Source: Microlunatus soli
Lineage (GTDB): Bacteria > Actinomycetota > Actinomycetes > Propionibacteriales > Propionibacteriaceae
DNA length: 64,000 nt
Direction: 5' to 3'
NCBI RefSeq assembly: GCF_900105385.1
Contig: NZ_LT629772.1
Coordinates: 930,001-994,000 of the forward strand
Shown here one piece after another: positions 46,286 to 61,750 of the stretch; the stretch's first letter is position 1, and each line of letters starts with the position of its first letter. A program made the position numbers and the translations under genes. The notes under the pieces are model-generated. The model searched no databases, was not told where the DNA came from, and saw only the letters and a program-made list of their open reading frames with translations.

Positions 46286-47377
46286 ATGTCCACGCGCAGC
46301 AACCCACCGACCCGTCGGCTGCCCGACGATCCCAGCCTCGAACACCTGAAGAACGAGGCCCGCAGTCTGCAACGGTCCCTGCGGTCCGGCGACGAACAGT
46401 TGATCAAGGAAGTGTCGGAGCAGCTGGCGGACCAGCAGATCGACTTCAGCCAGATCTCCTTGTCCAGCACGCAATGGCTGCTGGCACGCTGCTATGGATT
46501 CGCCAGCTGGCCACGGTTACGCCGGCAGCTGGACGTCATCGCCACCTACACCCGACGTCCCGAACCTGCCGCGGAGACCGAACCCGAGAGCAGCGACCAC
46601 CGGGCAGTCGTCGACCACCTGTTGGCGCTCAGCGTGCTGAACTACACCCGCGACCGCGGCAACACCTTCGATCGTCCGCGGCGGCTGCTGCAACGCCGAC
46701 CGGAACTGGCGACCGCCGACGCCTTCACGATGGCGGCCACCGGACGCAGCGACGAGCTGGATCGGCTGCTGGCTGACGACCCCGCGGCAGCCTCCCGGTC
46801 CGGCGGCCCCTATGACTGGCCGCCGCTGCTCTACTGCTGCTCCTCGCGGGTGTCGGAGCCGGAGCCGGCCGTTGCGGTCGTCCGGTCGCTGCTCGCTGCC
46901 GGAGCAGATCCGAACACCGGCTACCTGTGGTTCGGCCTCACCTCCGCCTTCACCGCGCTGACCTGCGCGATCGGCGGCGGCGAGCAGGGCCAGCCGCCGC
47001 ACCCCGCTGCGATCCCGATCGCCCGGCTGCTGCTCGACGCCGGCGCCGACCCCAACGACAACCAGGCCTTGTACAACAGGATGTTCACACCGGCCGATGA
47101 TCATCTGGAGCTGCTCTTCGACTACGGTCTGGGCACCGATCTGCCGAGCCCGTGGCGGGATCGGCTCGGTGACAGCTACCCGACCCCGGTTCAGATGCTG
47201 GGAGAGCAGCTGCGCTGGGCCGCCGGTCACGGGTTCATCCACCGGGTCCGGCTGCTGCTCGCCCACGGTGTGTCGTCCGACAATCGTGGCTACCACCCCA
47301 ACTTCGGCAACCGGACCGCCGCCGACCTGGCCGCTGAGGCCGGCCATCACGAGATCGTCGAACTGCTCACCGGCTAG
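46286..47377 (+). CDS. Ankyrin-repeat protein
   Basis: A 363-residue soluble protein. The N-terminus has the SLEHLKNEARSLQRSLRSGDE-type helix often found in actinobacterial ankyrin proteins. Ankyrin units include VVRSLLAAGADPNTGYLW, IARLLLDAGADPNDNQ, RVRLLLAHGVSSDNRG and AAEAGHHEIVELLTG. The ATG at 46286 has GGAG upstream. No enzymatic domain or signal peptide is seen; it probably binds a partner protein. Confidence 0.88.
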   Translation: MSTRSNPPTRRLPDDPSLEHLKNEARSLQRSLRSGDEQLIKEVSEQLADQQIDFSQISLSSTQWLLARCYGFASWPRLRRQLDVIATYTRRPEPAAETEPESSDHRAVVDHLLALSVLNYTRDRGNTFDRPRRLLQRRPELATADAFTMAATGRSDELDRLLADDPAAASRSGGPYDWPPLLYCCSSRVSEPEPAVAVVRSLLAAGADPNTGYLWFGLTSAFTALTCAIGGGEQGQPPHPAAIPIARLLLDAGADPNDNQALYNRMFTPADDHLELLFDYGLGTDLPSPWRDRLGDSYPTPVQMLGEQLRWAAGHGFIHRVRLLLAHGVSSDNRGYHPNFGNRTAADLAAEAGHHEIVELLTG

Positions 47378-47389
47378 CCGTGTGGGGAC

Positions 47390-47803
47390 TCAGAAGTGCA
47401 GGCCGTGGTCGGCCGCTTCGCCGACCCCACCGATGTCCAGGATCACGGCGAACGGCGGTTCCATGGCCGTCCGTTCGGCCAGCACCTTCCGCACGCGGGC
47501 GGCATAGTCGCGGTCCTCGACCGCGAACGGCAGCCAGTCGATGATCACCGCGGTCATCGCCGGAACGTCACGCAACGAGTCCCACAGCGCATCCAGGTTG
47601 TGGCCGGAATAGTCGGGAAACCCGAGCCGGTGCGCGAACTGGCGGTAGAAGCCGATCCGCTCGTCGAAGCCGTCGACCTGCCGCACCGTCCAGCCGGCAG
47701 TCGTCAGCCGGTCGGCGACCTTGAGGCTGAAGGAATCCGGCAGATCGTAGAGTCCGCCGGTGATCGGCTCGACGAGAAGAGGGCTGATGTCGTCGCTGCT
47801 CAT
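47390..47803 (-). CDS. Barstar-family ribonuclease inhibitor
   Basis: A 137-residue protein with the barstar inhibitory helix and loop: FYRQFAHRLGFPDYSGHN followed by LDALWDSLRDVP, which carry the conserved Asp and Tyr residues that block RNase active sites. C-terminal FAVILDIGGVGEA is the last strand. Its ATG overlaps the stop of the ribonuclease gene by four bases. It should protect the cell cytoplasm from the neighbouring RNase. Confidence 0.92.
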   Translation of the reverse strand: MSSDDISPLLVEPITGGLYDLPDSFSLKVADRLTTAGWTVRQVDGFDERIGFYRQFAHRLGFPDYSGHNLDALWDSLRDVPAMTAVIIDWLPFAVEDRDYAARVRKVLAERTAMEPPFAVILDIGGVGEAADHGLHF

Positions 47804-48192
47804 CGGCGGATCCTGGAGAAGCTGTCGTAGTGATCATCGGTGTAATAGAAGATCGTGTCCTGGTCGCCGGTCACGATCCGGCGGGCCCCACGATCGTCCT
47901 CCCCCGGCGTCGGCACGGTGTATTCGCGATAGAAGCCGTTCGCCTCGTCCGGCAGGATGCCCTCCCGGTTACCGAAGGTCGCGCCGTCCTTGTCGTACGG
48001 GAACGGTCCGCCATCGTCGATCAGTTGCAGGGTGTCCCGTGCCTCGGCCGGGAGTTGATCTTGACTGATATAGGGCAGCCCGGAGGCCGAATCGACCTCG
48101 CTGTCACTGTCGGTCGCGGTAGCGCTGCAGCCGGCCAGCAGCGCGATCAGCATGATCATCACGGCCGCCAGCCGGCCGACCCCGCGGCGCAT
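47800..48192 (-). CDS. RNase Sa/barnase-type guanyl ribonuclease with lipoprotein signal
   Basis: A 130-residue exported ribonuclease. The signal MIMLIALLAGCSA has a lipobox ending at Cys22, so it is probably a lipoprotein anchored outside the membrane. The mature part aligns with RNase Sa, with GPFPYDKDGATFGNREGILP, catalytic Glu90 in YREYTVPTPG, Arg101 and Arg105 in DDRGARRIV, and His121 in YYTDDHYDSF. The disulfide cysteines of RNase Sa are absent. Its ATG overlaps the ThiE-like stop; a GTG one codon earlier is possible. Confidence 0.9.
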   Translation of the reverse strand: MRRGVGRLAAVMIMLIALLAGCSATATDSDSEVDSASGLPYISQDQLPAEARDTLQLIDDGGPFPYDKDGATFGNREGILPDEANGFYREYTVPTPGEDDRGARRIVTGDQDTIFYYTDDHYDSFSRIRR

Positions 48193-48890
48193 CACGCCTG
48201 CTCCGCGAGTGCCGAGAACGTCAACCGGGTCAACTCCTCGTCACCGGCCCACACCTCACGCAACCGGCCGGACAGTTGCCGCGCGACCTCCCGCGGATCG
48301 GCCGCCTCGGTCAGCGTCGTGGTCACCGTGATCCGGCGAACGCCCGCCTCGATCGCCTGATTCAGCCGATCGAGATCGAACTCTCCGACCGCATACCAGG
48401 GCTTGGAAGTCAGCTCCCCGACCGGTGCTGCGGCAGCGGCAGCCGCCGCCAGCTCCAGGTCGGAGCTCGCGTCCACCAGCACGAAGTCGATCGCCGATTC
48501 GGCCAGCAGACGGTCGAGCTCGGCCCGGTCCCGTGCCGTCGCGCCGAGTCGGGTGAACCGTCCGAGCCGCGTCTTGAAGTCGACCAGTGCCTGATGGTCC
48601 GCCGGCTCGGCGAGCTCGACCGCGTCGGCCCCGAAATCACCGGCCAGCTCGGCCGAATCGCTGACCACCACCAGATGGCGGTGCCGCGCAGCGACGTCCC
48701 ACGCCGTCCGCAGGGCCGCCAACTCCACGTCATGGGCGAGCCCGGACTCCCTGATCTGGACCAGATCGACCCCGCCGGTCACGGCGGCTTCCAGGAACGT
48801 ATCCAGGTCACCCTGGGCCGAGCGGGTATCGGTCACGAGCATCAGTCGGGCCAGCTTCACCTGGGCTCCGACGCCGATCAGGACATTCAC
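48192..48890 (-). CDS. ThiE/TenI-like (thiamine phosphate synthase family) protein
   Basis: A 232-residue TIM-barrel protein. Family features are LARLMLVTDTR, GGVDLVQIRESGLAHDVELA, LVVVSDSAELAGDFGADAVEL and the late phosphate-site-like region around AGVRRITVTTTL. The typical glycine-rich phosphate loop of ThiE is degenerate, so a true thiamine phosphate synthase activity is doubtful. The GTG at 48890 is chosen because AAGG is eight bases upstream; an ATG at 48926 would overlap the small upstream frame. Confidence 0.75.
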   Translation of the reverse strand: MNVLIGVGAQVKLARLMLVTDTRSAQGDLDTFLEAAVTGGVDLVQIRESGLAHDVELAALRTAWDVAARHRHLVVVSDSAELAGDFGADAVELAEPADHQALVDFKTRLGRFTRLGATARDRAELDRLLAESAIDFVLVDASSDLELAAAAAAAAPVGELTSKPWYAVGEFDLDRLNQAIEAGVRRITVTTTLTEAADPREVARQLSGRLREVWAGDEELTRLTFSALAEQA

Positions 48891-48900
48891 ACCCCGAACC

Positions 48901-49038
48901 TTACTGATCGGATCGTTCGGATGCATCGTGACTGTCGGCGATCACCAGGTCGGGCGCATCGTCGGACCACTCGCCTTGTGGATAGGGCTCTTCGGGTTCG
49001 ACCGTCTCGCCGGCCACCGGGTCAGCCTCCTGCGACAC
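48901..49038 (-). CDS. Candidate small acidic protein (45 residues)
   Basis: A GTG-started frame, MSQEADPVAGETVEPEEPYP and onward, very rich in Glu/Asp/Pro and ending in SERSDQ. It overlaps the end of the FMN reductase gene by 17 bases, and its TAA is 11 bases before the ThiE-like GTG, so it fits the coupled operon. AGAGG lies nine bases upstream, and about 70% of its third positions are G or C. Function unknown; it might be only a chance frame. Confidence 0.4.
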   Translation of the reverse strand: MSQEADPVAGETVEPEEPYPQGEWSDDAPDLVIADSHDASERSDQ

Positions 49039-49636
49039 CCAGCGCCTCTCGCCGGCCGGGGTCGGATCCCGTCGCCCCGGCGAGCTGCCGGGCCAGCACG
49101 TCTCCGTACCGACCGGCCCAATCCGCGGCCACCGTCGCCAGCTCGGGCAGTTGACCTTCGGTGATGGTGAACGCCGGGGTCGGCAGCACCGCCCCGAGCT
49201 CGGTCAGCAACGGCCGCAGGTACAACTCCCCCACGAACGTGTGCGCCGGGCCGCCGGCGACCACCACCGGGATCGCAACCACCGAGGACAGCTCCCCGGC
49301 CTGGTAATGATCAAGGAACGCCTTCAGCAGACCCGTGTAGGACGCCTTGTAGACCGGTGTCGCGACCACCAGCAGCGACGCCGTACGGATTGTTTGCAGC
49401 GCATCCAGCAGAGCGGCCGGACGGGCGTCGGGTGCGACGAACAGATCGGCGCCGAACGCACTGACCTCGATGTCGGCGACCGATACCGCCGGATCGCCGT
49501 GGTCGGCTCCGATCGAGCCCGCGACGGCCTCGCCGACTGCGCGGCCGACCCGCAGTGTACGGGATCCGGGTCGGGGGTTGCCGGAGACGACCACGACCGG
49601 GGGTGCTCCGGCGGTCGCAGGCTGTGGGGTGGTCAT
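49022..49636 (-). CDS. NAD(P)H-dependent FMN reductase (SsuE/MsuE-like)
   Basis: A 204-residue flavodoxin-fold reductase that supplies FMNH2 to two-component monooxygenases. The FMN loop is VVVSGNPRPGSRTLRVG (about 15-31), and VVATPVYKASYTGLLKAFLD is the second conserved block. It overlaps the flavin reductase gene (ATGA). The presence of this enzyme next to several luciferase-like oxygenases supports the reduced-flavin supply role. Confidence 0.9.
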   Translation of the reverse strand: MTTPQPATAGAPPVVVVSGNPRPGSRTLRVGRAVGEAVAGSIGADHGDPAVSVADIEVSAFGADLFVAPDARPAALLDALQTIRTASLLVVATPVYKASYTGLLKAFLDHYQAGELSSVVAIPVVVAGGPAHTFVGELYLRPLLTELGAVLPTPAFTITEGQLPELATVAADWAGRYGDVLARQLAGATGSDPGRREALGVAGG

Positions 49637-50190
49637 CGATGCTCTCCGTTCTCTCTCGGCGCGGCCGGCACGAGAGTGTGGTGGGCGCGGTCGTGGTAGA
49701 CCAGCGGCGGTTCGGTGGAGCGGACCTCGGTCCGCAGCACGTCGACGATGATCAAGAAGCTGGGCCCGACCGGGATCCGACGATTGACCGTGCCGCGTAG
49801 CCAGCTGTGTCCGCCGTCCAGCACCGGCTCGCCGGACTCCAGGACGGACCAGCCGCCGGCCGCGAACCGGTCCACGTCGGTGGCCGCGAACCGGGACGAC
49901 GCCTCGGCCTGTTCGGCGGTCAAGAAGTTGATCACCAACGACTCGCTACGGGCGACCGCCGGCCAGGATCGTGAACTCGCGGCCAGCGAGAAGGCGACGG
50001 TCGGGGGTGTGGCGGCCACCGAGATCACCGAGGTCGCAGTGAATCCGACCGGGGTGCCGGCAGCGTTGATCAAGGTGATGACGGCGACCCCGGCCGGATG
50101 GCGCCGGAAGATCTGTCTGAAGTCGTCGGCGGTCACCTCGGCGAGTCGGTCGGCATCGGGTGACCGCTGCGGATCGGGGTGCGCGCTCAT
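49633..50190 (-). CDS. Flavin reductase-like protein (FMN-binding split barrel)
   Basis: A 185-residue flavin reductase family member. Hallmarks are FRRHPAGVAVITLINAAGTP, GFTATSVISVAATPPTVAFS, VINFLTAEQ and the C-terminal LVYHDRAHHTL. It is a second potential FMNH2 source for the operon's monooxygenases. Both ends overlap neighbours by four bases. Confidence 0.9.
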   Translation of the reverse strand: MSAHPDPQRSPDADRLAEVTADDFRQIFRRHPAGVAVITLINAAGTPVGFTATSVISVAATPPTVAFSLAASSRSWPAVARSESLVINFLTAEQAEASSRFAATDVDRFAAGGWSVLESGEPVLDGGHSWLRGTVNRRIPVGPSFLIIVDVLRTEVRSTEPPLVYHDRAHHTLVPAAPRENGEHR

Positions 50191-51263
50191 GCCGGTGTCC
50201 CCTCCTTGACATCATGATCATCGTCGACGGGCGGCCGGCCGGCCGGGCCTTCCCACAGCCGGTCGGGGATCTTCCTGGCCTCCGGCAACACCTCGGTCGC
50301 GAAGGCCTCCAGCCCGCGCAGCCGGACCGGGTCGGTCAGGTCGACGTCACCGACATGCTGCACCTCGTGGCCGAGTGCCTGCTGATAGCGGTGCAGCTTG
50401 TCCAGCACCTGCTCCGGGCTCCCGACGTAGTAGGAACCGCCGGCGATCGCCTCGTCCAGGTCGGCGAACGGCAACTGTTGCTTGAAGGTCGAAGCCCGGT
50501 CGAGGAAAGCTCGGAAGTAGGGCTCGTACTCGCGGTGCGCCTGCTGCGATGTCGGCGCCACATGAAACGCTGCTGCCCCGGCACCGACCAGCGCATCGGC
50601 GGGATCGCGACCGTGGTCGGCCCATCGCTTGCGGTAGTCGTCGACGAGATCACGGTACTGCTCCAGCTTGCCGGTCACGTTGGCCGAGAACAGTGGGTCA
50701 CCGGCCCGGGCCGCCAGATCGGTGGACTGGGTGCTGGTTGCCGAGCCGTGCCAGATCCGCGGCGCCGGCTGCAGCCAGTCCGGCCGTGGACTGAAGTCGG
50801 TCAGCGGCGGCCGGTAGCGACCGGACCAGGTGATCGACTTCTCGGTGATCAACCGGTGCAGCAAATCGTACTTCTCGGCGTTGCGATCCCACTGGTCCTC
50901 GGCGTCGTAGCCGAACACCTTGCCCTGCAACGGTGTGTTGCCCTTGCCGATGATGATCTCCACCCGTCCGTCGGACAGGTTGTCCAGGGTGGCGTAGTCC
51001 TCGGCCACCCGGACCGGGTCCAGCACCGACAACACCGTGACACCGGTGAACAGGCGCAGCCGGGTGGTCCGGGCGGCGATGCTGGCCAAGATCACCGGTG
51101 GCGAGGAGATTTCGGTGTCCGGGGTGTGATGCTCGCCGACGCCGAACCCGTCCAGGCCGGCCTCCTCGGCCCAGACCGCGGCAGCGACGACGTTGTCCAG
51201 CTTCTCCTTCGACGACAGCCGCGGTTCGGGGTTGAAGCCGAGCGTGAGTCCGATGAACTTCAT
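50187..51263 (-). CDS. LLM-class flavin-dependent monooxygenase
   Basis: A 358-residue luciferase-like TIM barrel beginning MKFIGLTLGFNPEPRLSSKE. Features are GFGVGEHHTPDTEISSPPV, LDNLSDGRVEIIIGKGN and YVGSPEQVLDKLHRY. It resembles the group of putative oxidoreductases related to alkanal monooxygenase. It needs reduced FMN, likely from the adjacent reductases. Its ATG overlaps the DUF1684 stop. Confidence 0.9.
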   Translation of the reverse strand: MKFIGLTLGFNPEPRLSSKEKLDNVVAAAVWAEEAGLDGFGVGEHHTPDTEISSPPVILASIAARTTRLRLFTGVTVLSVLDPVRVAEDYATLDNLSDGRVEIIIGKGNTPLQGKVFGYDAEDQWDRNAEKYDLLHRLITEKSITWSGRYRPPLTDFSPRPDWLQPAPRIWHGSATSTQSTDLAARAGDPLFSANVTGKLEQYRDLVDDYRKRWADHGRDPADALVGAGAAAFHVAPTSQQAHREYEPYFRAFLDRASTFKQQLPFADLDEAIAGGSYYVGSPEQVLDKLHRYQQALGHEVQHVGDVDLTDPVRLRGLEAFATEVLPEARKIPDRLWEGPAGRPPVDDDHDVKEGTPA

Positions 51264-52150
51264 GCGGCATCGGCCCCGATCCCCGGTTCCTCGGCGACGG
51301 GGGTCAGCGCCGGTTCGAGATCGACCCGGTACGGCGCCTGCTCGCCGGCGGTCACCGCCAGCTCGATCCGATTGTCCTCCGGCGGCTGCGGGCAGGTGCC
51401 GAAGTCGTTGAACGCATACGGCAGATTGACCGCCCGGTTGAAGTCCAGCAGCACGTCGGCCGGCCCGCCCGCGGTCGGGTCGCCGAGCTCGATCGGCAGG
51501 ATCCGCCACGGTGCGGTCTCGGCACCACTGGTGACGTCGGAGAACAGGATGCTGGTGCCGTGATCGCCGAAGACGACCAGCCGATGCTCGGCTCCGTCCC
51601 GCTCGAACCACACCTCACCGATCGCCTCGCGATGGTGCTCCAGGCCCGTCTGGGCGCCCGGAACGGTGATCGACCGAGGGGTGACGTACTCGGTGAAACT
51701 CGCCCGCACCACCCAGGCCGGATCGAACGGGTACGCCGGTACGCCGCGGAACTCCTGCCGGGCGACCGCTGCCGGGTCGTAGATCCGGAGTGCGTAGCTG
51801 CCGGTGCGCTTGATCAACTCGATCCGCTTGGCGCCCTCGCCGAGCGGTCCGAACTCGGCGAACAGCGCAGCGCCGGCCTCCGGCACCGCCAGCCGGACGG
51901 TGCCGATGATCAACTCCTCGGTCACCGGCCGACGCAGACTGTCGCCCTCGTCGGCGATCAGGGCCGCCCGGCCGCCGTCCACATACCAGCGCCCCGGTAG
52001 GTCGGTGATCCGCTGCGGCGACTCGGTCAACCAGTGCAGCCCCGACTGGGCCAACACCGAGTAGGGCTCGCTGAGCTTGCCGAACCGCTCGGCCCGCAGT
52101 TCGTGCCAGGCTCGCTCGGCATCGACGATGGTGCGGTCGGTGATGGTCAT
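51260..52150 (-). CDS. DUF1684 domain protein
   Basis: A 296-residue cytoplasmic protein of unknown function. Recognised by the N-terminal SVLAQSGLHWLTE block, VPAYPFDPAWVVRASF and the characteristic VNLPYAFNDFGTCPQPPEDN near the C-terminus. The start is ATG at 52150; the open frame continues 78 codons upstream only over the next gene. Its conserved presence in monooxygenase operons suggests a role in processing the oxidised product, which is inference. Confidence 0.85.
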   Translation of the reverse strand: MTITDRTIVDAERAWHELRAERFGKLSEPYSVLAQSGLHWLTESPQRITDLPGRWYVDGGRAALIADEGDSLRRPVTEELIIGTVRLAVPEAGAALFAEFGPLGEGAKRIELIKRTGSYALRIYDPAAVARQEFRGVPAYPFDPAWVVRASFTEYVTPRSITVPGAQTGLEHHREAIGEVWFERDGAEHRLVVFGDHGTSILFSDVTSGAETAPWRILPIELGDPTAGGPADVLLDFNRAVNLPYAFNDFGTCPQPPEDNRIELAVTAGEQAPYRVDLEPALTPVAEEPGIGADAA

Positions 52151-53361
52151 CTCGGGTCTCCTTCTGGTGCGGTGGGTGTGGGGGAACTCTTCGTCCAGTG
52201 CTCGGCGAGCAGCCGATAGGACTGCACCCGGTCGGCGTGCCGGTGGGTGATGGTGGTGATGATCAACTCGTCGGCCCCGGTCGCCTCGGCGAGTTGCTCC
52301 AGCCGAGCGGTCACGGTCTCGGCCGATCCGACGAACTGGGTCAGCGTCCGGTCGGCGACCAGTGCCCGATCGGCGTCGGACCATTCCAGCCGGTCGGCCT
52401 CCTCCGGCGACGGGAACCTGATCGCTCCCTGGCCGGATCTGATGCTGCGCACCCAGGGTGCGTATCCGGCGGCCAGCCGGCGTGCCGACTCGTCGTCCTC
52501 GGCGACCACCACGTCGGCCGAGATCGCCACATAGGGTTCGGCGAGGCGTTCGGAGGGTTTGAACGCCGACCGGTAGGCGTCAACCGCCTCCAGGACCCGT
52601 TCGGGGGCGACGTGGTAGTTGGCGGCGAACGGCAGCCCGCGGGTGCCGGCCAGGTGTGCGCTCTCGCCCCCGCTGCTGCCCAGCACCCACACCTCGAAGC
52701 CTGCCCCCTCGCCGGGAACGGCGTGCAACGCGACACCGTCGTCGTCGGCATACTCGCCGGCGACCAGACTCAGCAGATCACCGACCTGGTCGGTGTATTC
52801 CTGACCGACCTCGAGGCTGCCCAGCAGCTTGGCCTGAGCGATGAAGCGCGGCGACCGTCCGATCCTGCCGAGCAGGCCCTTCGGCCCTTTGGGAAGCAGG
52901 AGACCGTTCTCCGCGGTCGGCACCGGCTCATGATCATCGGTGTTCAGCTGGTCATCGGCCGGCGCCTGATCATCGGTCTTCGGGGGCGGCCCCGGTGCGC
53001 GATGCGCCGAACGACCGAGCCCGAGATCGATCCGCCCCGGATACAGCGCGTCGATCAGGCCGAACTGTTCGACGATGCCCAGCGCGGAGTAGTTGCCGGC
53101 CAGCACCGCACCCGACCCGACCCGGATGCTCGACGTGTTGGCCGCGATCAGCGCAATCGCCACCGCGGGCGCCGAACCGGCCACCCCGGGGTTGAGGTGA
53201 TGCTCGGCGATCCAGAAACGCCGATAGCCGAACTCCTCGGTCCGGCGGGCAAGATCAACCGCGTTGCCGACCGCCTCGCCGACGTGTTGTCCGCTGGTCA
53301 CCGGGATCAGGTCCAGCACCGACAGCGGCACCCGCCGGTCGGGGTTCACGTCCTTGGTCAT
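52147..53361 (-). CDS. LLM-class flavin-dependent monooxygenase with hydrophilic insert
   Basis: A 404-residue luciferase-like protein. Motifs are LSVLDLIPVTSGQHVGEAV, FWIAEHHLNPGVAGSAP, VGSGAVLAGNYSALGIVEQ and WVLGSSGGESAHLAG. Residues about 122-152 (KTDDQAPADDQ followed by LNTDDHEP) are an acidic insert encoded by imperfect repeats, placed after the conserved DLGLGRS loop. It overlaps genes at both ends. Confidence 0.9.
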   Translation of the reverse strand: MTKDVNPDRRVPLSVLDLIPVTSGQHVGEAVGNAVDLARRTEEFGYRRFWIAEHHLNPGVAGSAPAVAIALIAANTSSIRVGSGAVLAGNYSALGIVEQFGLIDALYPGRIDLGLGRSAHRAPGPPPKTDDQAPADDQLNTDDHEPVPTAENGLLLPKGPKGLLGRIGRSPRFIAQAKLLGSLEVGQEYTDQVGDLLSLVAGEYADDDGVALHAVPGEGAGFEVWVLGSSGGESAHLAGTRGLPFAANYHVAPERVLEAVDAYRSAFKPSERLAEPYVAISADVVVAEDDESARRLAAGYAPWVRSIRSGQGAIRFPSPEEADRLEWSDADRALVADRTLTQFVGSAETVTARLEQLAEATGADELIITTITHRHADRVQSYRLLAEHWTKSSPTPTAPEGDPR

Positions 53362-55058
53362 GATCGTCCTTCCATCGCGGGCTGCCGACCGGGAATCGCG
53401 TCCAGCAGATCCCGGGTGTAGTCACTGTCCGGTTGTTCGAAGATGGCGTCGGTTGGACCGGACTCGATCAGTCGGCCGGCCCGCATCACGCCGACCCGAT
53501 GGGCGATCTGCCGGATCACCGCCAGGTCGTGGGAGATGAACAGGTAGCTCAGCCCCAGGTCGTCCTGCAGCGACACCAGCAACTCCAGGATCTTGGCCTG
53601 GACCGAGACGTCGAGCGCCGACACCGGCTCGTCCAAGATCACCAGCTCCGGCTGCAACGCCAGCGCACGGGCGATCGCCACCCGCTGCCGCATCCCGCCG
53701 GACAGCTCCGCCGGGCGTCGCCGGAGCACCGAGGACGGCAGCGCGACCCGGTCGACCAGCTCGGTGACCCGGCGCCGCCGTGCGACCGGGTCGGGCCGGT
53801 GCCGGTCTGCGTCCCGGAATGCCGACAACGGCTCGGCGATGATCGCCTCGATCGTCAACCGAGGATCCAACGAGGCGTACGGATTCTGGTAGACCACCTG
53901 GAATCGGCGGCGGAGCCGACGTAACGCCTCGCCGTCGGTCCGGGTGACATCGGCTCCGTCCAAGATCACCGATCCGCTGTCCGGATCGATCAAGCGGGCG
54001 GCCAGCCGCGCCGTCGTCGACTTCCCCGAACCGGATTCGCCGACCAGCCCGTAGGTCTCGGCGCGGCCGATCGTGAAGCCGACATCGTCGACCGCTCGGA
54101 ACGGTGCGTGGACACCGGGCAACTGGTACTCCTTGACGAGCCCCTCGACGGCCAACAACGGTTGCGCCGGATCGGGGGCGGTCGGCGGTTGAACGGGGCG
54201 TTCGGTGATCAGCGGCACGGAGCTGAGACTCGGCGCGGCGGCCAGCAGGGCCTGGGTGTAGGGATGTTCGGCCCGATGCAGGATGTCGTCCGCGCTGCCC
54301 TGCTCGACGACCCGGCCGGACTTCATCACCACGATCCGGTCCGCACGTTCCGCGGCCACGCCGAGATCATGGGTGATCAGCAGGACGCCGGTGCCGGATC
54401 CCAGCGTGAGCTCGGTGATCCGGTCCAGGATGCGCCGCTGGACGGTGACATCGAGAGCGCTGGTCGGCTCGTCGGCGATCAGCAGTTCCGGTCCGGCGAT
54501 CATGGCCTGTGCGATCAGCGCTCGTTGTCGCATCCCGCCGGACAATTGATGGGGATACTGGCCGGCGCGGACCGTCGGCTGATCGAGCCCGGCTTCCGCC
54601 AGGGCGTCGATCGCGCGGTGGCGTGCCTCCCGCTTGGTGGCGATCTTGTGCACCAGCAGGACTTCGGCGACCTGATCACCGATCCGCTTCACCGGATTCA
54701 GCGCCACCATCGGATCCTGCGGGACGAAGCCGATCAGCCGACCACGTACCGAGCGACGGCGCCGTTCGGAGAGTCCGAGCAGGTCGTGAGCTCTGCCGCC
54801 TGCGGTCAGCACCGCCCGACCGGCATCGATCGCGGCGGTACGCGGCAGTAGTCCGATCAGGGCGTGCGCGGTGGTCGACTTGCCCGAACCGGACTCCCCT
54901 ACCACTGCGACGATCTCGCCCCGTCCGATCGTCAGACCCACGTCCCGGACGGCCAGGGTCCGTTGTCTGCCGCCGAATCCGCCGGCGGTGCGGTAGCCGA
55001 CCGTCAGCTGGTCCACGGTCAGCAACTCGGTTGTCCGGTCCCGTGTCTGTCGAGTCAT
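53358..55058 (-). CDS. Dipeptide/nickel-type ABC transporter, fused double ATPase
   Basis: A 566-residue protein with two complete ABC domains in one chain (equivalent to DppD plus DppF). Domain 1 has Walker A GESGSGKSTTAH and signature LSGGMRQRALIAQ; domain 2 has Walker A GESGSGKSTTAR and signature LSGGMRQRVAIAR. Walker B motifs are LLIADEPTSALD and LVILDEPVSALD. It should power the importer formed by the two permeases upstream. It overlaps both neighbours. Confidence 0.95.
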   Translation of the reverse strand: MTRQTRDRTTELLTVDQLTVGYRTAGGFGGRQRTLAVRDVGLTIGRGEIVAVVGESGSGKSTTAHALIGLLPRTAAIDAGRAVLTAGGRAHDLLGLSERRRRSVRGRLIGFVPQDPMVALNPVKRIGDQVAEVLLVHKIATKREARHRAIDALAEAGLDQPTVRAGQYPHQLSGGMRQRALIAQAMIAGPELLIADEPTSALDVTVQRRILDRITELTLGSGTGVLLITHDLGVAAERADRIVVMKSGRVVEQGSADDILHRAEHPYTQALLAAAPSLSSVPLITERPVQPPTAPDPAQPLLAVEGLVKEYQLPGVHAPFRAVDDVGFTIGRAETYGLVGESGSGKSTTARLAARLIDPDSGSVILDGADVTRTDGEALRRLRRRFQVVYQNPYASLDPRLTIEAIIAEPLSAFRDADRHRPDPVARRRRVTELVDRVALPSSVLRRRPAELSGGMRQRVAIARALALQPELVILDEPVSALDVSVQAKILELLVSLQDDLGLSYLFISHDLAVIRQIAHRVGVMRAGRLIESGPTDAIFEQPDSDYTRDLLDAIPGRQPAMEGRS

Positions 55059-55948
55059 CGGTTTCCCCGTTCGAGCTCGCGGGCGATCCGGTTGGCGGCG
55101 AGGACGGTCAGCACGACGACCAGCCCGGGCATCGTGGTCAGCCACCAGCCGGTGTCCAGGAAGTCCCTCCCGGCCGCGACCAGCGAGCCCCACTCCGGGG
55201 TCGGCGGCTTGGCGCCGTAGCCGAGGAAGGACAATGCGGAGACCGCCAGCATCGCGGTGCCGAAGTCGAGCGCCGCCAGGACCAGCACCGGCGGCAGCGC
55301 ATTGGGCAGGACGTGCCGCAGCAGCACCCGATAGCGCCGGACGCCGAGCGAGCTCGCCGCCTCGACGTAGTCGCTGACCTTGATCTTGATCACTTCCGAA
55401 CGCATCACCCGTGAGCAACTGGCGACGCTGGCGAAACCGACCGCGATCGCAACGTTGATCGTCCCGAAGCCGAGCACGATGATCAGCGCCAGCGACAACA
55501 ACAGACCGGGGATCGCCATGATCACGTCGACCAGTCGCATCGCGATCACGTCCACCCAGCCGCCGATCGCTCCGGCCACCAGGCCGACCAGGCTGCCCAG
55601 GCAGACCCCGACCGCGACGGCGATCACCGCCGACAGCAGGGACAGTCCCGACCCGTGCACGACGCGGCTGAACAGGTCCCGGCCGATCTGGTCGGTCCCG
55701 AACCAGTGCTGCGCCGACGGCGGCTGCAGCAACGCCCGCTGATCGGCTGCGTACGGGTCGTGGCCGGTGAAGACGGCCGGCACGACGGCAGCCAGCAGGG
55801 CCACCAGCAGCCACAGCACCGACAACACCAGGCCCGGGCGCGCGGCCCGGAGCAGCCGACGAGCCGGACCGAGGCTGCTGACGGGTGTCCGATCAAGATC
55901 ATCGACATCGACCGGCTCGGAACGCCGATCGACCAGAACAGCGGTCAT
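55055..55948 (-). CDS. ABC transporter permease (DppC/OppC-like)
   Basis: A 297-residue permease with about six membrane segments. The oligopeptide permease features include HWFGTDQIGRDLFSRVVHG near the N-terminus and the EAA-loop type DYVEAASSLGVRRYRVLLRH, which contacts the ATPase. ATGA overlaps with the ATPase gene downstream and with DppB-like upstream. Confidence 0.93.
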   Translation of the reverse strand: MTAVLVDRRSEPVDVDDLDRTPVSSLGPARRLLRAARPGLVLSVLWLLVALLAAVVPAVFTGHDPYAADQRALLQPPSAQHWFGTDQIGRDLFSRVVHGSGLSLLSAVIAVAVGVCLGSLVGLVAGAIGGWVDVIAMRLVDVIMAIPGLLLSLALIIVLGFGTINVAIAVGFASVASCSRVMRSEVIKIKVSDYVEAASSLGVRRYRVLLRHVLPNALPPVLVLAALDFGTAMLAVSALSFLGYGAKPPTPEWGSLVAAGRDFLDTGWWLTTMPGLVVVLTVLAANRIARELERGNR

Positions 55949-56949
55949 CGGGTCTCACCCGCCGGCAGCGGTGTCCTCTCGACGGCAGCTCGACGAGGCC
56001 GGGCGCCGGATCGGGTGGACCGACCGACGCGCGGGTCGAGCAGCGGATAGATCAGGTCGACCAGCAGCGTGCAGAGCACCACCACGGCCGCGCCGAACAC
56101 CACGATCCCGAGCACCAGCGGGATGTCCTGGGTGCTGACCGCCGTTGCGGTCAGTTGCCCCAGACCGGTGCGGGAGAAGACGGTCTCGGTGACCACCGCC
56201 CCGCCGAGGAAGTTGCCGACCAGGACTCCGGTGATCGTCAACGTCGGCAGTGCCGCATTGCGTGCCGCGTGCCGCAGATGCACCCGGGCCCGGCCCGCGC
56301 CCTTGGCCACAGCGGTGTCGATGTAGGCCTGGTCCTCCTGCGCCCGCAGGCCGCGACCGAACACCTGGGCGATCACGGCCGTGCCGAGGATCGACAGCGT
56401 CACCGAGGGCAGGATCAGACTGGCGAACCCGTCGTTGCCGAAGGCCGGCAGCAGTCCCAGTCGGAACGAGAAGAGTTGCAGCAACAGCAGTGCGGCCCAG
56501 AAGCTGGGCACGCTGACGCCGAGTGGTGGCAGCGCGAGCATCGCCTGCCGCAGCCAGCCGACCCGGACGGCGGTCGCCAGCAGCGCCCAGCCACCGCCGA
56601 CGATGATCGACAGCGCGATCCCGAGGCCGGCGATCTGGGCGGTCGCCGGAACAGCGGCCGCGATCGCGGCCGAGACCGATCCGGTCCGCGGCGACGTTCC
56701 CAGGTCACCGGTCAGCAGCGCACCCAGGTGCTGCAGATACTGGACGACGACCGGTTGATCGAATCCGTAGCGGGCCCGGAGCTCGGCAATCTGCTCCGGT
56801 GATGCGGTGCTGTTGGCCGGATCGCCGCCGGAGGCGATCAGCGCCGCCGGATCACCGGGCAGCGCGTACAAGATCACGAACGCGACCGTGTACGCCGCCC
56901 ACAACACGATCACCGCCTGCAGCAGCCGGCCCAGCAGATAGCGGATCAT
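55945..56949 (-). CDS. ABC transporter permease (DppB/OppB-like)
   Basis: A 334-residue permease. It starts MIRYLLGRLLQAVIVLWA, typical of OppB, and its EAA-like loop is QAYIDTAVAKGAGRARVHLRH. The C-terminal LVDLIYPLLDPRV is the usual end. It begins two bases after the substrate-binding protein gene. Confidence 0.93.
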   Translation of the reverse strand: MIRYLLGRLLQAVIVLWAAYTVAFVILYALPGDPAALIASGGDPANSTASPEQIAELRARYGFDQPVVVQYLQHLGALLTGDLGTSPRTGSVSAAIAAAVPATAQIAGLGIALSIIVGGGWALLATAVRVGWLRQAMLALPPLGVSVPSFWAALLLLQLFSFRLGLLPAFGNDGFASLILPSVTLSILGTAVIAQVFGRGLRAQEDQAYIDTAVAKGAGRARVHLRHAARNAALPTLTITGVLVGNFLGGAVVTETVFSRTGLGQLTATAVSTQDIPLVLGIVVFGAAVVVLCTLLVDLIYPLLDPRVGRSTRSGARPRRAAVERTPLPAGETR

Positions 56950-56951
56950 CC

Positions 56952-58550
56952 CTACCCCTCCGTTGCTTTCGCGTCGTGGAACTGCAGCCGGGAGTAGGAG
57001 TCGAAGCGGATCCCGGTGGCGTGCTGACCGAGGCCGAGCACGGTGGTCAACTCGAACACCGGGATGCCGTAGGCCTGCTGCACGATGATCTTCTGCGCCT
57101 GCGCCGCGTAGCCGGAGCGCCTGCGCTGATCGATCGTCTCCTGCTGCGCCGTGAGGCTCTTGATCAACTTCGGATCGGTGATCCCGTAGGCCGCGTTGCC
57201 GTTCTGCCAGTACACGTTGCGCAGGATGTCGGGGTCGGGTCGGGTGCTGTTGCCCCAGGACAGGTCGAAGTCGCCGGTCTTCAGTTTCGCCTGCAGCTCC
57301 CCGATCGGTGTGGAGTTCAGATCGAGTTCGATGCCGACCGCCTTGGCCTGTTGCTGGATCAGTTCCAGAGCTGCTTGGTTGGGGTTGAAGTTGGTCGACC
57401 AGTAGCTCTTCAGCTGCAGCCGCTTCCCGGCCTTGGTCCGGATCCCGTCGGGTCCGACCTTCCAGCCGGCACGATCCAGCAGCTTCCTGCCGGCGGCCTG
57501 ATCAACGGTCAGCTCGGACGACAGATCGGTCCAGCCCGGAGTCGTCCTGGCCAACGTGCTGGTCGCCGGGTGGTAGCTCGGGCTCAGGACGGCCTTGACC
57601 ACGGCCTGTCGATCGATCGCCTTGCTCAGCGCCTGTCGGACTGCGGTATCCCGGCCGATCGCGCTCTTCTCGTTGGCCACCAGGGAGAACACCTGCCCCG
57701 GGTTCGGCCGGGACTGCAGGGTGAACCCGGACGATTTCAGCCCGGCTTCGTCCTGCGGCGGCACGCCGCCGATGGCGTCGACCTGGCCAGACTTCAACGC
57801 CCCGGTCCGCACCCCCGACTCCGGGATCACCTTGAAGATCAACTTTGCACTGAGGGCGGCACCCTTGTTGTCCCACAGCGAGGAGCCCCAGCGGTAGTCG
57901 TTCCGCCGGTTCTCCACCACCTCGGTGTTCTTGGTGTAATGGTCGAGCGTGTACGGCCCGGTGCCGACCAGGTGGCCAGCGCAGCGGTCCGCCGGTGGTG
58001 TCTTCAGCGACGACGGCGCCAGCATGCCGAGGAAGTGGCTCGCGGTGGCCTGCAGGAACTGGGCGTTCGGTTCACTGAACTCGACTCGCGCCACCCGGTC
58101 GCTGACCACCACGGTGCGCTGGTAGCCCGCAAGGAACTGCAGCGACTGCGGCTGCTCGGCGCCGTTGCGGACGATCTCGTCGAAGTTCTGCTTCACCGAC
58201 GTCGCGTCGAAGGCCGTGCCGTCGGAGAAGGTGACCCCGTCACGCAGCGTGAAGGTGAACCGGGTGGCTGCGGAGTTCACGGCGTACTTGGTGGCGAGCC
58301 AACCGACGATCCTGCCGGTCTCCGGATCCTGATCGGTCAGCGAGTCGACCAGCTGTCGTGCCGGGTAGGCGCCGTCGTTGTTGCCGGCGACCCGTGGATT
58401 GATGCAGCTGGGATCGGAGGCCAGGGCGAAGCTGAAGTCGCTCTTCGTGGTCGGCTCGTCACCCGGTGCTGCTCCATTGCCGCCGCAGCCGACGACCAGC
58501 AGTGCCGCCACTGCGGTGCCGATCACGCCGCCGATCCGTTTGGTGATCAT
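56952..58550 (-). CDS. ABC transporter substrate-binding lipoprotein (SBP_bac_5)
   Basis: A 532-residue extracytoplasmic solute-binding protein. The lipoprotein signal ends AALLVVGCGGNG (Cys22). Family markers are FTFTLRDGVTFSDGTAFDA, GTGPYTLDHYTKNTEVVE and VRQALSKAIDRQAVVKAVLS. The ligand could be a peptide, an aminopolycarboxylate-like chelator or an organosulfur compound. ATGA overlap with the monooxygenase gene. Confidence 0.92.
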   Translation of the reverse strand: MITKRIGGVIGTAVAALLVVGCGGNGAAPGDEPTTKSDFSFALASDPSCINPRVAGNNDGAYPARQLVDSLTDQDPETGRIVGWLATKYAVNSAATRFTFTLRDGVTFSDGTAFDATSVKQNFDEIVRNGAEQPQSLQFLAGYQRTVVVSDRVARVEFSEPNAQFLQATASHFLGMLAPSSLKTPPADRCAGHLVGTGPYTLDHYTKNTEVVENRRNDYRWGSSLWDNKGAALSAKLIFKVIPESGVRTGALKSGQVDAIGGVPPQDEAGLKSSGFTLQSRPNPGQVFSLVANEKSAIGRDTAVRQALSKAIDRQAVVKAVLSPSYHPATSTLARTTPGWTDLSSELTVDQAAGRKLLDRAGWKVGPDGIRTKAGKRLQLKSYWSTNFNPNQAALELIQQQAKAVGIELDLNSTPIGELQAKLKTGDFDLSWGNSTRPDPDILRNVYWQNGNAAYGITDPKLIKSLTAQQETIDQRRRSGYAAQAQKIIVQQAYGIPVFELTTVLGLGQHATGIRFDSYSRLQFHDAKATEG

Positions 58551-59950
58551 GATGCCGCCCGGTGCGACAACGGATCGGCGATCGGCTGCCGGCCGGCTTC
58601 CGGCAGGCCGAGATTCTCCCGCAGCGTGCCGCCCTCGTAGTCGGTGCGGTAAGCACCGAGATCCTGCAGTTCGGGGACGACGGTGTCGACGAAGCCGTCC
58701 AGCCCGGACGGAGTCAGGTGCGGCACCAGGATGAAGCCGTCGGCCTGTTCGTCGGCCACCGCATCGGCGAGCTGTCGGGCGACCTGGCGGGGTGTACCGA
58801 CGAAGGTCCGCGACGCCTGCACCTCGATCATCAGCTCGCGGATGCTGAGCCCCTTCTCCCGGGCCAGCGTCCGGTAGCGGTCGGCAAGACCATCCTCGTC
58901 GTTGCGCCGCGACTGTCCCGCCACCACCGACGGGCCGCCGCGGTCGGGATCGACCGTGGGCAGCGGGCCGTCGGGATCGAGGTCGGACAGATCCCGGTTC
59001 CAGACCTGACCGAGCAGGTTGAGTGCGGTCTGTGGCGTGATCTGCGCCCGACGGATCCGATAGTCGTTGTGCTGTGCCTCCTCCTCGGTGTCGCCGAGGG
59101 CGAAGCTGACCCCGGGGAAGATCTTCAGCTCCTCGGGCTGCCGGCCGAAGCTCGCCGCGCGCTGTTTGAAGTCGGCATAGGAGGTCCGGCGTCGTTCGGC
59201 CGTGTCGAACCAGCGTCCGAAGATGGCGTCCGCAGTTCGGGCCCCGAAGTCGCGGCCGTCGGCGGAGTCACCGGCCTGAAAGATCACCGGATGTCCCTGC
59301 ACCGGACGGGGTGTGTCGAACACCCCGCTGATGTCGAACTGCTCACTGTGGTGGCTGAACGGGCTGATCGCCCCGGGCCGGGTGAAATGATCAAGGTCGG
59401 CGACCACGGCATCGGCCTGCCAGCTGTCCCACAGCTCACGGGCGGTGCCGACGGAGTCCGCGGCCCGGACGTATCGGTCGGTGCGCGCCAGGTAGCCGCC
59501 GCGGCGGAAGTTCTCACCGGTGAAGGCGTCGGAGGAGGTCACGACGTTCCAGCCGGCACGGCCGTCGGACAGCAGGTCCAACGAGGCGAACTGCCGAGCC
59601 AACTCGTACGGCTCGTTGAAGGTGGCGTTGATCGTCCCGACCAGCCCGAGGTGCTCGGTCACCGCCGCCAGCGCCGCCAGCACCGGCAACGTGTCGGGCC
59701 GGCCGACGACATCAAGATCATGGATCTTGCCGTGCCGTTCGCGCAGCCGGAGGCCTTCGGCCAGGAAGAAGAAGTCGAACCTGCCCCGTTCCGCGCTCTG
59801 GGCGAGTTCGCGGAACGACCCGAACGCGATGTGACTGCCGGCCTGCGGGTCGGACCAGACGGTGTTGTGGTTGACGCCGGGAAAGTGTGCACCGAGCCGG
59901 ACCTGCTTGGTCGGCCGCCCGGCTTGTCGATGGTCCTGCGATTGACTCAT
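58547..59950 (-). CDS. NtaA/SnaA/DszA-type FMNH2-dependent monooxygenase
   Basis: A 467-residue LLM monooxygenase of the group that includes nitrilotriacetate, pristinamycin and dibenzothiophene-sulfone oxygenases. Signatures are LGAHFPGVNHNTVWSDPQ, ERGRFDFFFLAEGL, LSDGRAGWNVVTSSDA and PVIFQAGDSADGRDFGAR. It needs FMNH2 and O2. The ATG at 59950 has GAGGAG upstream. Substrate unknown. Confidence 0.92.
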   Translation of the reverse strand: MSQSQDHRQAGRPTKQVRLGAHFPGVNHNTVWSDPQAGSHIAFGSFRELAQSAERGRFDFFFLAEGLRLRERHGKIHDLDVVGRPDTLPVLAALAAVTEHLGLVGTINATFNEPYELARQFASLDLLSDGRAGWNVVTSSDAFTGENFRRGGYLARTDRYVRAADSVGTARELWDSWQADAVVADLDHFTRPGAISPFSHHSEQFDISGVFDTPRPVQGHPVIFQAGDSADGRDFGARTADAIFGRWFDTAERRRTSYADFKQRAASFGRQPEELKIFPGVSFALGDTEEEAQHNDYRIRRAQITPQTALNLLGQVWNRDLSDLDPDGPLPTVDPDRGGPSVVAGQSRRNDEDGLADRYRTLAREKGLSIRELMIEVQASRTFVGTPRQVARQLADAVADEQADGFILVPHLTPSGLDGFVDTVVPELQDLGAYRTDYEGGTLRENLGLPEAGRQPIADPLSHRAAS

Positions 59951-59952
59951 GA

Positions 59953-61104
59953 TCAACTCCTCACGTACCGATTGACGGGTCTGGTCAGGCCGAAGCGTCC
60001 GCGAAGCGTCAGATCCCGATCGCCGGCTCGGAACAGGCCTCGTTCCTCCAGCTGAGGGACGACGGCGTCGGCGAACAGCTCCAACCCGCCCGGCAGTACC
60101 TCGAAGTTGATCAAGGCGCCGGCGAACCCGGCGGAGCCGATCCCGGCGAGCTCCTCGACGAGCGCTCCCGGCGTGCCCTCGAATCCGATCCCGCGGGCCG
60201 TCGGGCGCTGCGCCAGGCCGTGATCAAGAACCGCGCGCTGCTCCTTGACCTGATCGGCGGTGCCCGCCAGCAGGACCTGGTAGCCGACGAGCACCGGCAG
60301 CGGCTCGCTGCGGCCGGCCTCGAGTGCCGCCGCTCGGACCCCGTCGGCCAGGGTCCGGTCGGTTTCGAGATCACCGGCAGTGACGACGGCGACGTCGGCA
60401 TGACGTCCGGCGTTGCTGGCCGCGGCCGCCGTCCGTACCACGAACACGGTCGGCGGCCGGCCCTGCGGCGGTCGCGGCGTGATCGACGGACCCTTGACCG
60501 AGAAGAACTCCCCGTCGAAGTCGACGTAGTGCAGTTTGTCCCGATCGATGAAGCGGCCGGTCGGCAGATCGCGGATCTCCGCGTCGTCCTCCCAGGAGTC
60601 GAACAGTCGCTGGACGACGTCGGCGACCTCGCCGGCCTCGGCGTCGGCCGTTTGGGGGTCGAGCAGCTCCCGTCGCCCGAAGTGCCGGTTCTGTTCCTCC
60701 GCGGTCGGGTCGGCGCTGCTGGCCGTGATCGGGGCCCAGCCGGCCCGCCCCTCACTGGTGTGGTCGAGGGTGGCCACCGCCTTGGAGATGTGGAACGGCT
60801 CGGCGTGGGTGACGGTGAATTCGGGCACCAGGCCGATGCCCCCGGTCACCGGCGCGAGTCGGCTGGCCAGCAATGCGGCGTCCAGCCGGCCACGGAAGTT
60901 GCGGTCGTCCTCGCTCTGCAACGCATAGCCGTCGGTGAAATAGGCGAAGTCGATCCCGGCCCGTTCGGCGACCCGGATCAGGTCGAGGTAGTAGCGCGCG
61001 CCGAAGGCACGGCGCGCCAGCTGCGGCCGAAGTCGCCACGCTCGGGGGTGGGTACCGAGCCCTTCGAGCGCGACACCGAGGTGCAGCGAGGTGGAGAGAG
61101 CCAT
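59953..61104 (-). CDS. LLM-class flavin-dependent monooxygenase, first gene of the operon
   Basis: A 383-residue luciferase-like protein. Features are YYLDLIRVAERAGIDFAYFTD, LVPEFTVTHAEPFHISKA, LDHTSEGRAGWAPITASS and TVFVVRTAAAASNAG. It resembles the NtaA group but is shorter. The ATG at 61104 has AAAGGA upstream. It starts the long coupled operon that runs to the barstar gene. Confidence 0.9.
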   Translation of the reverse strand: MALSTSLHLGVALEGLGTHPRAWRLRPQLARRAFGARYYLDLIRVAERAGIDFAYFTDGYALQSEDDRNFRGRLDAALLASRLAPVTGGIGLVPEFTVTHAEPFHISKAVATLDHTSEGRAGWAPITASSADPTAEEQNRHFGRRELLDPQTADAEAGEVADVVQRLFDSWEDDAEIRDLPTGRFIDRDKLHYVDFDGEFFSVKGPSITPRPPQGRPPTVFVVRTAAAASNAGRHADVAVVTAGDLETDRTLADGVRAAALEAGRSEPLPVLVGYQVLLAGTADQVKEQRAVLDHGLAQRPTARGIGFEGTPGALVEELAGIGSAGFAGALINFEVLPGGLELFADAVVPQLEERGLFRAGDRDLTLRGRFGLTRPVNRYVRS

Positions 61105-61750
61105 CGGGCCGATCGTCCTTTCATGATCATCAGATTCTCTGTATTACCTACGGTTTAACTAGGATTTAGATCGACAGTTCACCGCGTCCTGGTCCTCTCG
61201 TCAGGGACCCCGATCTGATGGGCCCGCACTTGCCACTACCGCCCGGATGGGCCGTACAGCCATGTCTTCACCCGGGGCACCCCGCCGCGGAGGAGGGTTG
61301 CCGGTCAGCAAGCCGGGGCTTGGCGCTGACGCTCTTGACGAAGACAACGCTAACCCGCCGTCGCAGCAGCCCCGACCGGACGTCCGCGATGTGAACGCCG
61401 CTGTCTCGCTGTCACGAGACCGGAGCCCCCGACTCGAGATCACCTGGCCCGCAGACGGGCCGGCCCACGGGTCGTCGATGATCACCACGGCAATGCCCCA
61501 CACACCGGGCCGGCCGGCGGGGGGCGCGGAATCGCTGCAGAGCAAGGAAAATCGAACACCCGTTGGTTATCCGGCAGAGGTCTCGCGGTGATCACCGTCA
61601 GGACACGAGCCTCGACAGCCACGGCACATCCAGGACACAACGCGGGAGTACGGCGCGTTGGCCCTGGAATCACGCGGCGGTCGCCCTACACTCGGCCATG
61701 GGTCGACCGCGCCGACCCGCCCTTCCCCTCGGCACCTTTTTGGAGCAGGC
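61105..61750. other. 646-base divergent gap between the monooxygenase operon and the PASTA kinase
   Basis: Frames such as minus 61201-61545 have no recognisable motif. The part near 61130-61180 is AT-rich and holds an operator-like repeat for the operon. A small palindrome CGGTGATCACCG lies at 61587-61598. I see no SAM, cobalamin or other riboswitch signature. Confidence 0.5.
61147..61163. promoter_or_regulatory. Operator-like repeat CCTA-N9-TAGG upstream of the monooxygenase operon
   Basis: The + strand reads ATTACCTACGGTTTAACTAGGATT, which, within an AT-rich patch 43-59 bases before the first gene, has symmetric CCTA/TAGG half sites and flanking ATT/TT. This suggests control by an unlinked nutrient-sensing repressor. 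The regulator is not encoded nearby. Confidence 0.4.

Follow-up and report, generated by a model that had tools for sequence, protein, structure and literature searches.

An 11-gene chain preceded by a SAM-IV aptamer

The window analyzed here is a 64,000-nucleotide stretch of the Microlunatus soli genome (contig NZ_LT629772.1, positions 930,001 to 994,000), and the system in question is a minus-strand chain of 11 genes running from 61104 to 49022 in window coordinates, with an S-adenosylmethionine (SAM)-IV riboswitch aptamer upstream of its first gene. All 11 reading frames are intact and their 10 junctions consist of nine 4-base overlaps and a single 2-base gap, between the genes of the binding protein and the NikB/DppB-type permease, which bears out the coupled chain drawn in a first-pass annotation. 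Profile matches of the window proteins assigned the products to Bac_luciferase (four luciferase-like monooxygenases, LLM1 to LLM4), SBP_bac_5, BPD_transp_1 (two), ABC_tran (two stretches), DUF1684, Flavin_Reduct, and FMN_red. From upstream to downstream, the features are as follows.

61221 to 61340, minus strand: SAM-IV riboswitch aptamer (RF00634), full length, found with cmscan
61105 to 61220, minus strand: leader between the aptamer and the LLM1 start codon, 116 bases, presumed expression platform
59953 to 61104, minus strand: LLM1, NtaA-family-like, lacking the lid segment and most of the flavin-site residues; predicted noncatalytic partner of LLM2
58547 to 59956, minus strand: LLM2, NtaA/DmoA-family flavin mononucleotide (FMN) monooxygenase (TIGR03860 and Protein Data Bank (PDB) 1tvl matches); predicted catalytic, C-S-cleaving subunit
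56952 to 58550, minus strand: binding protein, SBP_bac_5, with a lipobox-like LLVVGC noted by eye
55945 to 56949, minus strand: permease, NikB/DppB type
55055 to 55948, minus strand: permease, NikC/DppC type
53358 to 55058, minus strand: fused double ATP-binding cassette (ABC) ATPase, two ABC_tran stretches
52147 to 53361, minus strand: LLM3, MsnO8-family (TIGR03558) monooxygenase; candidate S-oxygenase
51260 to 52150, minus strand: DUF1684 protein (PF07920)
50187 to 51263, minus strand: LLM4, CE1758/2I7G-like monooxygenase
49633 to 50190, minus strand: flavin reductase (Flavin_Reduct)
49022 to 49636, minus strand: NADPH-dependent FMN reductase, SsuE/MsuE/CE1759-like, below all cut-offs

The four Bac_luciferase proteins, the importer, DUF1684, and the two reductases had all been recognized before; the earlier division into one NtaA-type oxygenase and three others gives way to a set in which LLM1 and LLM2 are both NtaA/DmoA-like. 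The coupling of these genes exceeds chance. Homologues of all 11 occur together in G028, a genome of another genus in the same family, with the gene order conserved apart from an exchange of the two reductases. Homologues of the first nine stand in the same order in G004, which also lies outside the window genus but within the family, and where the available stretch ends inside LLM4. A scan for terminator-like sites found none on the minus strand within 47000-61800, inside or after the chain, and a sigma-70 scan gave no match. Most likely, the 11 genes form one operon under the control of the SAM-IV riboswitch.

The aptamer, which the first-pass annotation had overlooked, scored 97 bits, where the gathering score is 38, and covered model positions 1-116 of 116, with E-values of 1.8e-16 by cmscan and 2.3e-18 when searched in a short stretch. 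Because it lies directly upstream of LLM1, the operon is most likely SAM-repressed and devoted to sulfur scavenging. SAM riboswitches generally repress expression, and repression by SAM is the direction we infer for this switch. The centroid fold of the leader shows a GGGCC...GGCCC pairing beside the start codon, but with energies that do not beat those of shuffles we base no claim on it. The genome (6.73 Mb, one contig) contains two SAM-IV riboswitches in all. The other, at 1670860-1670974 (L031, 2861-4466), precedes a gene for a class V aminotransferase that is 60% identical to a SufS-like same-genus protein; at 290 bits, this homologue stays under the cut-off of the SufS family model.

LLM1 and LLM2 as a pair

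LLM2 matched TIGR03860 at 392.3 bits, above the cut-off of 279.7, and LLM1 reached 222 bits with the same model, below it. The best solved relative of LLM2 is YtnJ of Bacillus subtilis (1tvl, 272 bits), which a PDB title names as CmoJ; further solved relatives are 3sdo (245 bits), BdsA (218), NtfO2 (218), LadA (182), DmoA (168), and EmoA (159). All residues of the flavin-site motifs (N, T, S, R, Y, Q, A, G, and S) are kept in LLM2. We compared these residues and the lid in 80 LLM1 and 76 LLM2 proteins taken from the loci surveyed below (L118, L139, L160, and L183 gave no LLM2). The Q of QAG is present in 0/80 LLM1 versus 76/76 LLM2 and the Y of RY in 3/80 versus 76/76, and the N is likewise missing in nearly all LLM1. 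The lid, which spans 95 to 102 residues in LLM2, is missing in 80/80 LLM1, where the span is 11 to 27 residues. The structure model of the window LLM1 (predicted local distance difference test score (pLDDT) 89.0, predicted template modeling score 0.89) nonetheless has the LLM fold, and the NtaA-family protein 3sdo is a better match for it (175 bits) than NtfO1 (116 bits).

Having neither the lid segment nor most of the flavin-site residues, LLM1 probably serves LLM2 as a partner subunit, and we consider its noncatalytic role likely on these sequence features; the two would form a heterodimer with one dead subunit. The opposite possibility, that LLM1 is an independent enzyme using another flavin site or cofactor F420, so that the operon would encode four oxygenases, appears unlikely. 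LLM1 is tied to LLM2 in nearly all loci, the Q, Y, and N of its flavin-site motifs are missing in nearly all members, and in 298 of 300 genome pairs its conservation is lower than that of LLM2, the pattern that PMC8027225 describes for NtfO1-type partner subunits. The matches of LLM2 with NtfO2 (218 bits) and of LLM1 with NtfO1 (116 bits) could also be read as a sign of secondary-metabolite tailoring, as carried out by NtfO1/NtfO2 or SnaA/SnaB pairs. We give this hardly any credence for an operon that has no biosynthetic genes and comes with an importer and SAM-IV control.

The importer, the remaining monooxygenases, and DUF1684

The importer combines the SBP_bac_5 protein, two permeases, and two ATPase domains, the make-up of a peptide/opine/nickel ABC importer. 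Its binding protein reached 313 bits with TIGR04028 (KPN_01854-type), below the cut-off of 468.5. Such an importer raises the possibility that the operon serves to import and degrade a metal chelate or an opine-like metallophore of the nitrilotriacetate/ethylenediaminetetraacetate type and is not primarily concerned with sulfur. The best solved relatives of the binding protein are named nickel-binding proteins (107 bits), and its matches with the CntA and NikA models stay below cut-off. For both permeases the highest scores come from nickel models, again below cut-off, and EmoA belongs to the family of LLM2. Set against this are the SAM-IV aptamer upstream in the window and at several relatives' loci, the closer match of LLM2 with YtnJ (272 bits) than with EmoA (159 bits), and the SufS-like gene in the same riboswitch regulon, so that we regard a chelate pathway as very improbable. 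The first-pass annotation had left the substrate class open; the riboswitch narrows the nutrient to sulfur, so that sulfur compounds are favored and chelators recede to a competing explanation.

LLM3 scored 321.9 bits with TIGR03558, above its cut-off of 166.95, and its best solved relative is 4us5; CmoO is presumably a TIGR03558 member as well. The match of LLM3 (52147-53361) with this model is split into two parts by a spacer of about 45 residues, and at another place in the genome (G000:C1:1069106-1070068) the model finds a stronger match (371 bits). LLM4 reached 228.5 bits with the CE1758 model TIGR04036 (cut-off 479.1), has 2i7g as its best solved relative, and remains below the cut-offs of both models that it matches.

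The DUF1684 protein, the sole PF07920 match in the genome, gave a structure model with a pLDDT of 88.1; the solved members of this family carry PDB titles calling them uncharacterized. In the same-genus genome G125, a SAM-IV operon has DUF1684 and a flavin reductase as its only genes ahead of ThiE, suggesting that DUF1684 can act with reduced flavin by itself. The window operon would link DUF1684 to flavin-dependent sulfur metabolism.

Linkage and history within the genus and family

Six same-genus genomes, that of the window included, have an LLM1 match of E 1e-60 or better, and in 5/6, again counting the window, a SAM-IV is located no more than about 2.5 kb upstream of LLM1. In the four besides the window genome (G018, G059, G088, and G098), the gene directly behind SAM-IV is a homologue of the window genome's class V gene; it is followed by a gene that by eye encodes a glutathionyl-reductase-like protein, LLM1, LLM2, and the two flavin reductases. 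Two of these loci (G018 and G098) also hold the importer and one (G098) holds LLM4; in G059, importer and LLM4 are found at another SAM-IV locus, L045. Since the class V gene and LLM1-LLM2 are co-located in these four genomes, the two SAM-IV units of the window genome together match what its relatives hold in one. Varying combinations of NAD_binding_9, glutathionyl-reductase-like (by eye), SsuD-like LLM, and Gig2-like (PF07350) genes were also seen at same-genus SAM-IV loci or their edges (L033, L035, L037, and L044).

In a tree, the window LLM2 groups with that of G004 at a support of 100, apart from its genus-mates, and it is 74-75% identical to G004 versus 55-58% to the genus-mates. Given this grouping and the lack of SAM-IV at the G004 and G028 operons, the sequences indicate that the operon has probably moved between genera, with the riboswitch on one side alone. 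A gene that by eye is sirohydrochlorin chelatase-like (L226, 4256-5125), at a distance of about 2 kb from the operon of G028, would fit a sulfur-assimilation neighborhood.

A survey of LLM1 loci

Scanning the named genomes with an LLM1 alignment yielded at least 587 stretches with an LLM1 relative, of which 80 loci, some cut by contig ends, were kept. Apart from one record titled Melainabacteria, they are actinobacterial, with Streptomyces, Mycobacterium, Amycolatopsis, Frankia, Rhodococcus, and Nocardia among the genera. In 75/80 loci, LLM2 is encoded within 400 bases of LLM1 on the same strand, LLM3 stands between the two in 2 more, and no LLM2 was found in the available stretch at the remaining 3/80. 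Conversely, 30 LLM2 matches from among 42 genomes with a match were examined, that in L198 being partial, and all 30 have an adjoining LLM1 match. Other genes are near LLM1 less regularly (LLM3 at 43 loci, LLM4 at 27, the binding protein at 16, DUF1684 at 11), and a GNAT homologue occurs within the available stretch at 14/80.

Riboswitches were sought in these loci with model R1, built from 28 SAM-IV sequences, taking E below 1e-12 as strong. It found 12 strong SAM-IV matches in 11/80 loci (1.54 Mb), against about 0.16 expected from a baseline of 20 whole genomes of the order, in which 13 were found over about 127 Mb (a sum of rounded sizes) and whose species differ from those of the loci. Nine of the 12 are upstream of LLM1 on its strand, in Streptomyces (L114, L121, L141, L143, and L174), Blastococcus (L124), Hamadaea (L158), Nesterenkonia (L185), and Cellulosimicrobium (L117); the opposite strand carries the remaining three (L124, L156, and L161). 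Rfam confirmed all three R1 matches tested (L117, L158, and L185), and no cis-regulatory RNA family other than SAM-IV was found at the relatives' loci scanned (7, 7, and 6 loci). The SAM-IV-led Streptomyces loci share the order amino-acid-type permease, ATPase, SBP_bac_3, GNAT, LLM1, LLM2, LLM4, LLM3, and eight Streptomyces loci combine an amino-acid-type permease and GNAT with LLM1 and LLM2. The architectures of the SAM-IV-led loci differ, which suggests that capture took place repeatedly.

The set of neighbors proposed in the first-pass annotation thus recurs in full in G028 and elsewhere breaks up into separate modules. Its claim that four oxygenases imply stepwise cleavage of one complex compound is not supported: LLM1 is without the lid and most flavin-site residues, the other genes come and go, and such modular gain and loss between loci counts against a single stepwise pathway. 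We also tried the idea that importer type tracks LLM2 subfamilies and rejected it, since a quick tree of 100 LLM2 with no shuffle baseline had at least 24 changes of label (Opp, amino-acid, or none), "none" accounting for 61/100 and including loci cut by contig ends; matches with stops, shorter than 380 amino acids, below 50% identity, or at or below 300 bits were excluded from this tree.

The same modularity lends some weight to a toolbox for sulfonates, sulfonate esters, sulfones, or mixed organosulfur, in which each LLM would have its own substrate. The relatives of LLM2 include BdsA/DszA (218 bits) and DmoA (168 bits), an SsuD-like LLM (215 bits, below cut-off) is present at some of the same-genus SAM-IV loci, and there is similarity of LLM4 and the FMN reductase to the CE1758/CE1759 models. 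In Gordonia NB4-1Y, moreover, NtaA-type and LLM genes are expressed more on organosulfur sources than on sulfate, according to PMC7661421. We consider the toolbox somewhat unlikely, since the binding protein is of the SBP_bac_5 type and not an SsuA-like sulfonate binder, the amino-acid-type importer and GNAT at eight Streptomyces loci point to amino-acid substrates, and the full gene set stays together in two genera. As wider context for sulfur use, a table for Rhodococcus IGTS8 in PMC8557817 gives NtaA-type proteins as probable sulfur-acquisition proteins.

Neighboring genes

A 95-base gap after 49022 separates the chain from genes for a ThiE-like protein, a ribonuclease (PF00545), and barstar (PF01337) at 47390-48926, joined by 4-base overlaps each. 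The range heading the first-pass annotation runs from 47390 to 61104, but the chain ends at 49022. The trio is left out because in G125 (L042, 15494-17356) its homologues follow a short SAM-IV operon at the same genomic place, in which only DUF1684 and the flavin reductase stand before the ThiE gene and no LLM or importer homologue was found. With no terminator-like site after 49022, read-through into the trio is possible. A LacI gene near the trio (44960-46072) has a homologue in G125 that is 82% identical, and the arrangement of LacI and trio has its counterpart there.

On the other side of the operon, the divergent gene at 61658-63928 encodes, by eye, a serine/threonine protein kinase with PASTA-like repeats. 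A mraW RNA motif (RF01746) lies at 15937-16055 on the minus strand.

Discussion

In the pathway that we propose, low SAM, resulting from sulfur or methionine limitation, would lead to expression of the operon. The Opp/Dpp-type ABC importer would then take up a small organosulfur conjugate, most likely a thioether of the S-alkylcysteine/mercapturate or cysteine-peptide type. With FMNH2 supplied by the two reductases, LLM3 and/or LLM4, as candidate S-oxygenases, would oxidize the sulfur, and the LLM1-LLM2 heterodimer, with LLM2 as its CmoJ-like catalytic subunit, would cleave the C-S bond, so that the freed sulfur could return to cysteine, methionine, and SAM. The earlier description of an import-and-oxidize scavenging system with its own FMNH2 supply fits this scheme. 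That the operon serves sulfur acquisition under SAM control is very probable, and for this function together with LLM1 as a noncatalytic partner we estimate a probability of about 0.65. An S-alkylcysteine-type substrate is a tentative choice that we hold at somewhat less than even odds, and the order of the reactions, like the substrate, is our reconstruction.

Several observations weigh against this joint reading. The importer is peptide/nickel-like and not amino-acid-like. The eleven genes include no acetyltransferase and no N-acetylcysteine deacetylase, the search for the latter being confined to them, and the nearest GNAT relative in the genome is 46% identical over half its length and unlinked. 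Leader fold energies are no better than those of shuffles (z 1.24 and 0.84). As to the riboswitch, G004 and G028 carry much the same operon without SAM-IV, the same-genus genome G120 has LLM1-LLM2 and no SAM-IV, 69/80 LLM1 loci have no strong R1 match in the available stretch, and none of the 13 baseline SAM-IV adjoins the LLM1 of its genome, which means that the link between SAM-IV and LLM1 is not seen in other families of the order. As to LLM1, the window protein keeps the T of the VTS motif and 59/80 keep the S, and the LLM1 of G028 has an open frame of just 256 amino acids. An importer swap, with an Opp-type importer replacing GNAT and the amino-acid importer, was considered as well and was dropped, there being no exclusivity in the 80 loci: GNAT occurs in 2/16 loci with SBP_bac_5 versus 12/64 without, and the amino-acid permease in 4/16 versus 17/64.

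One way round the absent acetyltransferase would be a substrate, imported or internal, that is already N-acetylated. The mycothiol conjugate amidase Mca turns mycothiol S-conjugates into mercapturates (N-acetyl-S-conjugates of cysteine), and the genome encodes Mca (461 bits), which may be such a source. In L194 (6810-9343), a protein that by eye reads as another NtaA-type LLM adjoins the GNAT relative of the window genome.

Sulfur acquisition under SAM control makes of this operon a testable pathway with a built-in metabolite switch, and the LLM1-LLM2 pair, common in actinobacteria (at least 587 LLM1 relatives), gains a probable role. A broader proposal, which we hold to be evenly balanced, is that the pair is a widespread, mainly actinobacterial two-subunit FMN monooxygenase in which LLM1, after loss of lid and flavin site, is the obligatory, fast-evolving partner of a CmoJ-like catalytic LLM2, that it forms the core of a mobile sulfur module repeatedly captured by SAM-IV, and that DUF1684 is a new component of this module. 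If true, this would extend obligate luciferase-like heterodimers beyond luminescence and antibiotic biosynthesis. No description of a two-subunit enzyme with a lidless, NtaA-family-like partner appeared in the literature found. In the open literature, the combination of SAM-IV, riboswitch, and monooxygenase returned no paper, and among the best 10 to 15 matches, out of up to tens of thousands, for broader topics (SAM-IV and sulfur metabolism, mercapturate and mycothiol, S-alkylcysteine and riboswitch, LLM heterodimer and sulfur) none dealt with this operon or with SAM-IV and LLM genes.

Comparison with known systems

The closest parallels are the B. subtilis CmoO/CmoJ (ytn) and scm (ScmK, formerly YxeK) systems, with which the window operon would share FMNH2-dependent C-S cleavage by a YtnJ/CmoJ-family enzyme; Bacillus alkylcysteine salvage, too, has a dedicated importer. 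As described in PMC10863075, CmoO makes the sulfoxide and CmoJ then cleaves the C-S bond of N-acetyl-S-alkylcysteine sulfoxides; in Bacillus clusters, such monooxygenases occur together with acetyltransferases and deacetylases (PMC12757645). The Streptomyces relatives, with GNAT and an amino-acid-type importer beside LLM1-LLM2, resemble this acetylate-oxidize-cleave pathway. The window operon, in contrast to the Bacillus clusters, has SAM-IV, a lidless LLM1, a peptide-type importer, DUF1684, and LLM4, and its eleven genes include neither acetyltransferase nor deacetylase.

Judged by sequence, LLM1-LLM2 resembles NtfO1-NtfO2 (PDB 7E36) as an LLM pair in which one partner is lidless and less conserved; the chemistry there is that of natural products, whereas the window pair belongs to a sulfur regulon. 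SnaA/SnaB and LuxA/LuxB are further heterodimeric LLM pairs. The Corynebacterium ssu/seu systems acquire sulfur from sulfonates and sulfonate esters with several LLMs and FMN reductases, and LLM4 and the FMN reductase match the models of the CE1758/CE1759 LLM-reductase duo, both below cut-off. The ssu/seu genes are regulated by the proteins McbR and SsuR and their importer type differs from that of the window, where a riboswitch stands in place of protein regulators. This riboswitch matches the SAM-IV class (RF00634) over its full length and well above the gathering score.

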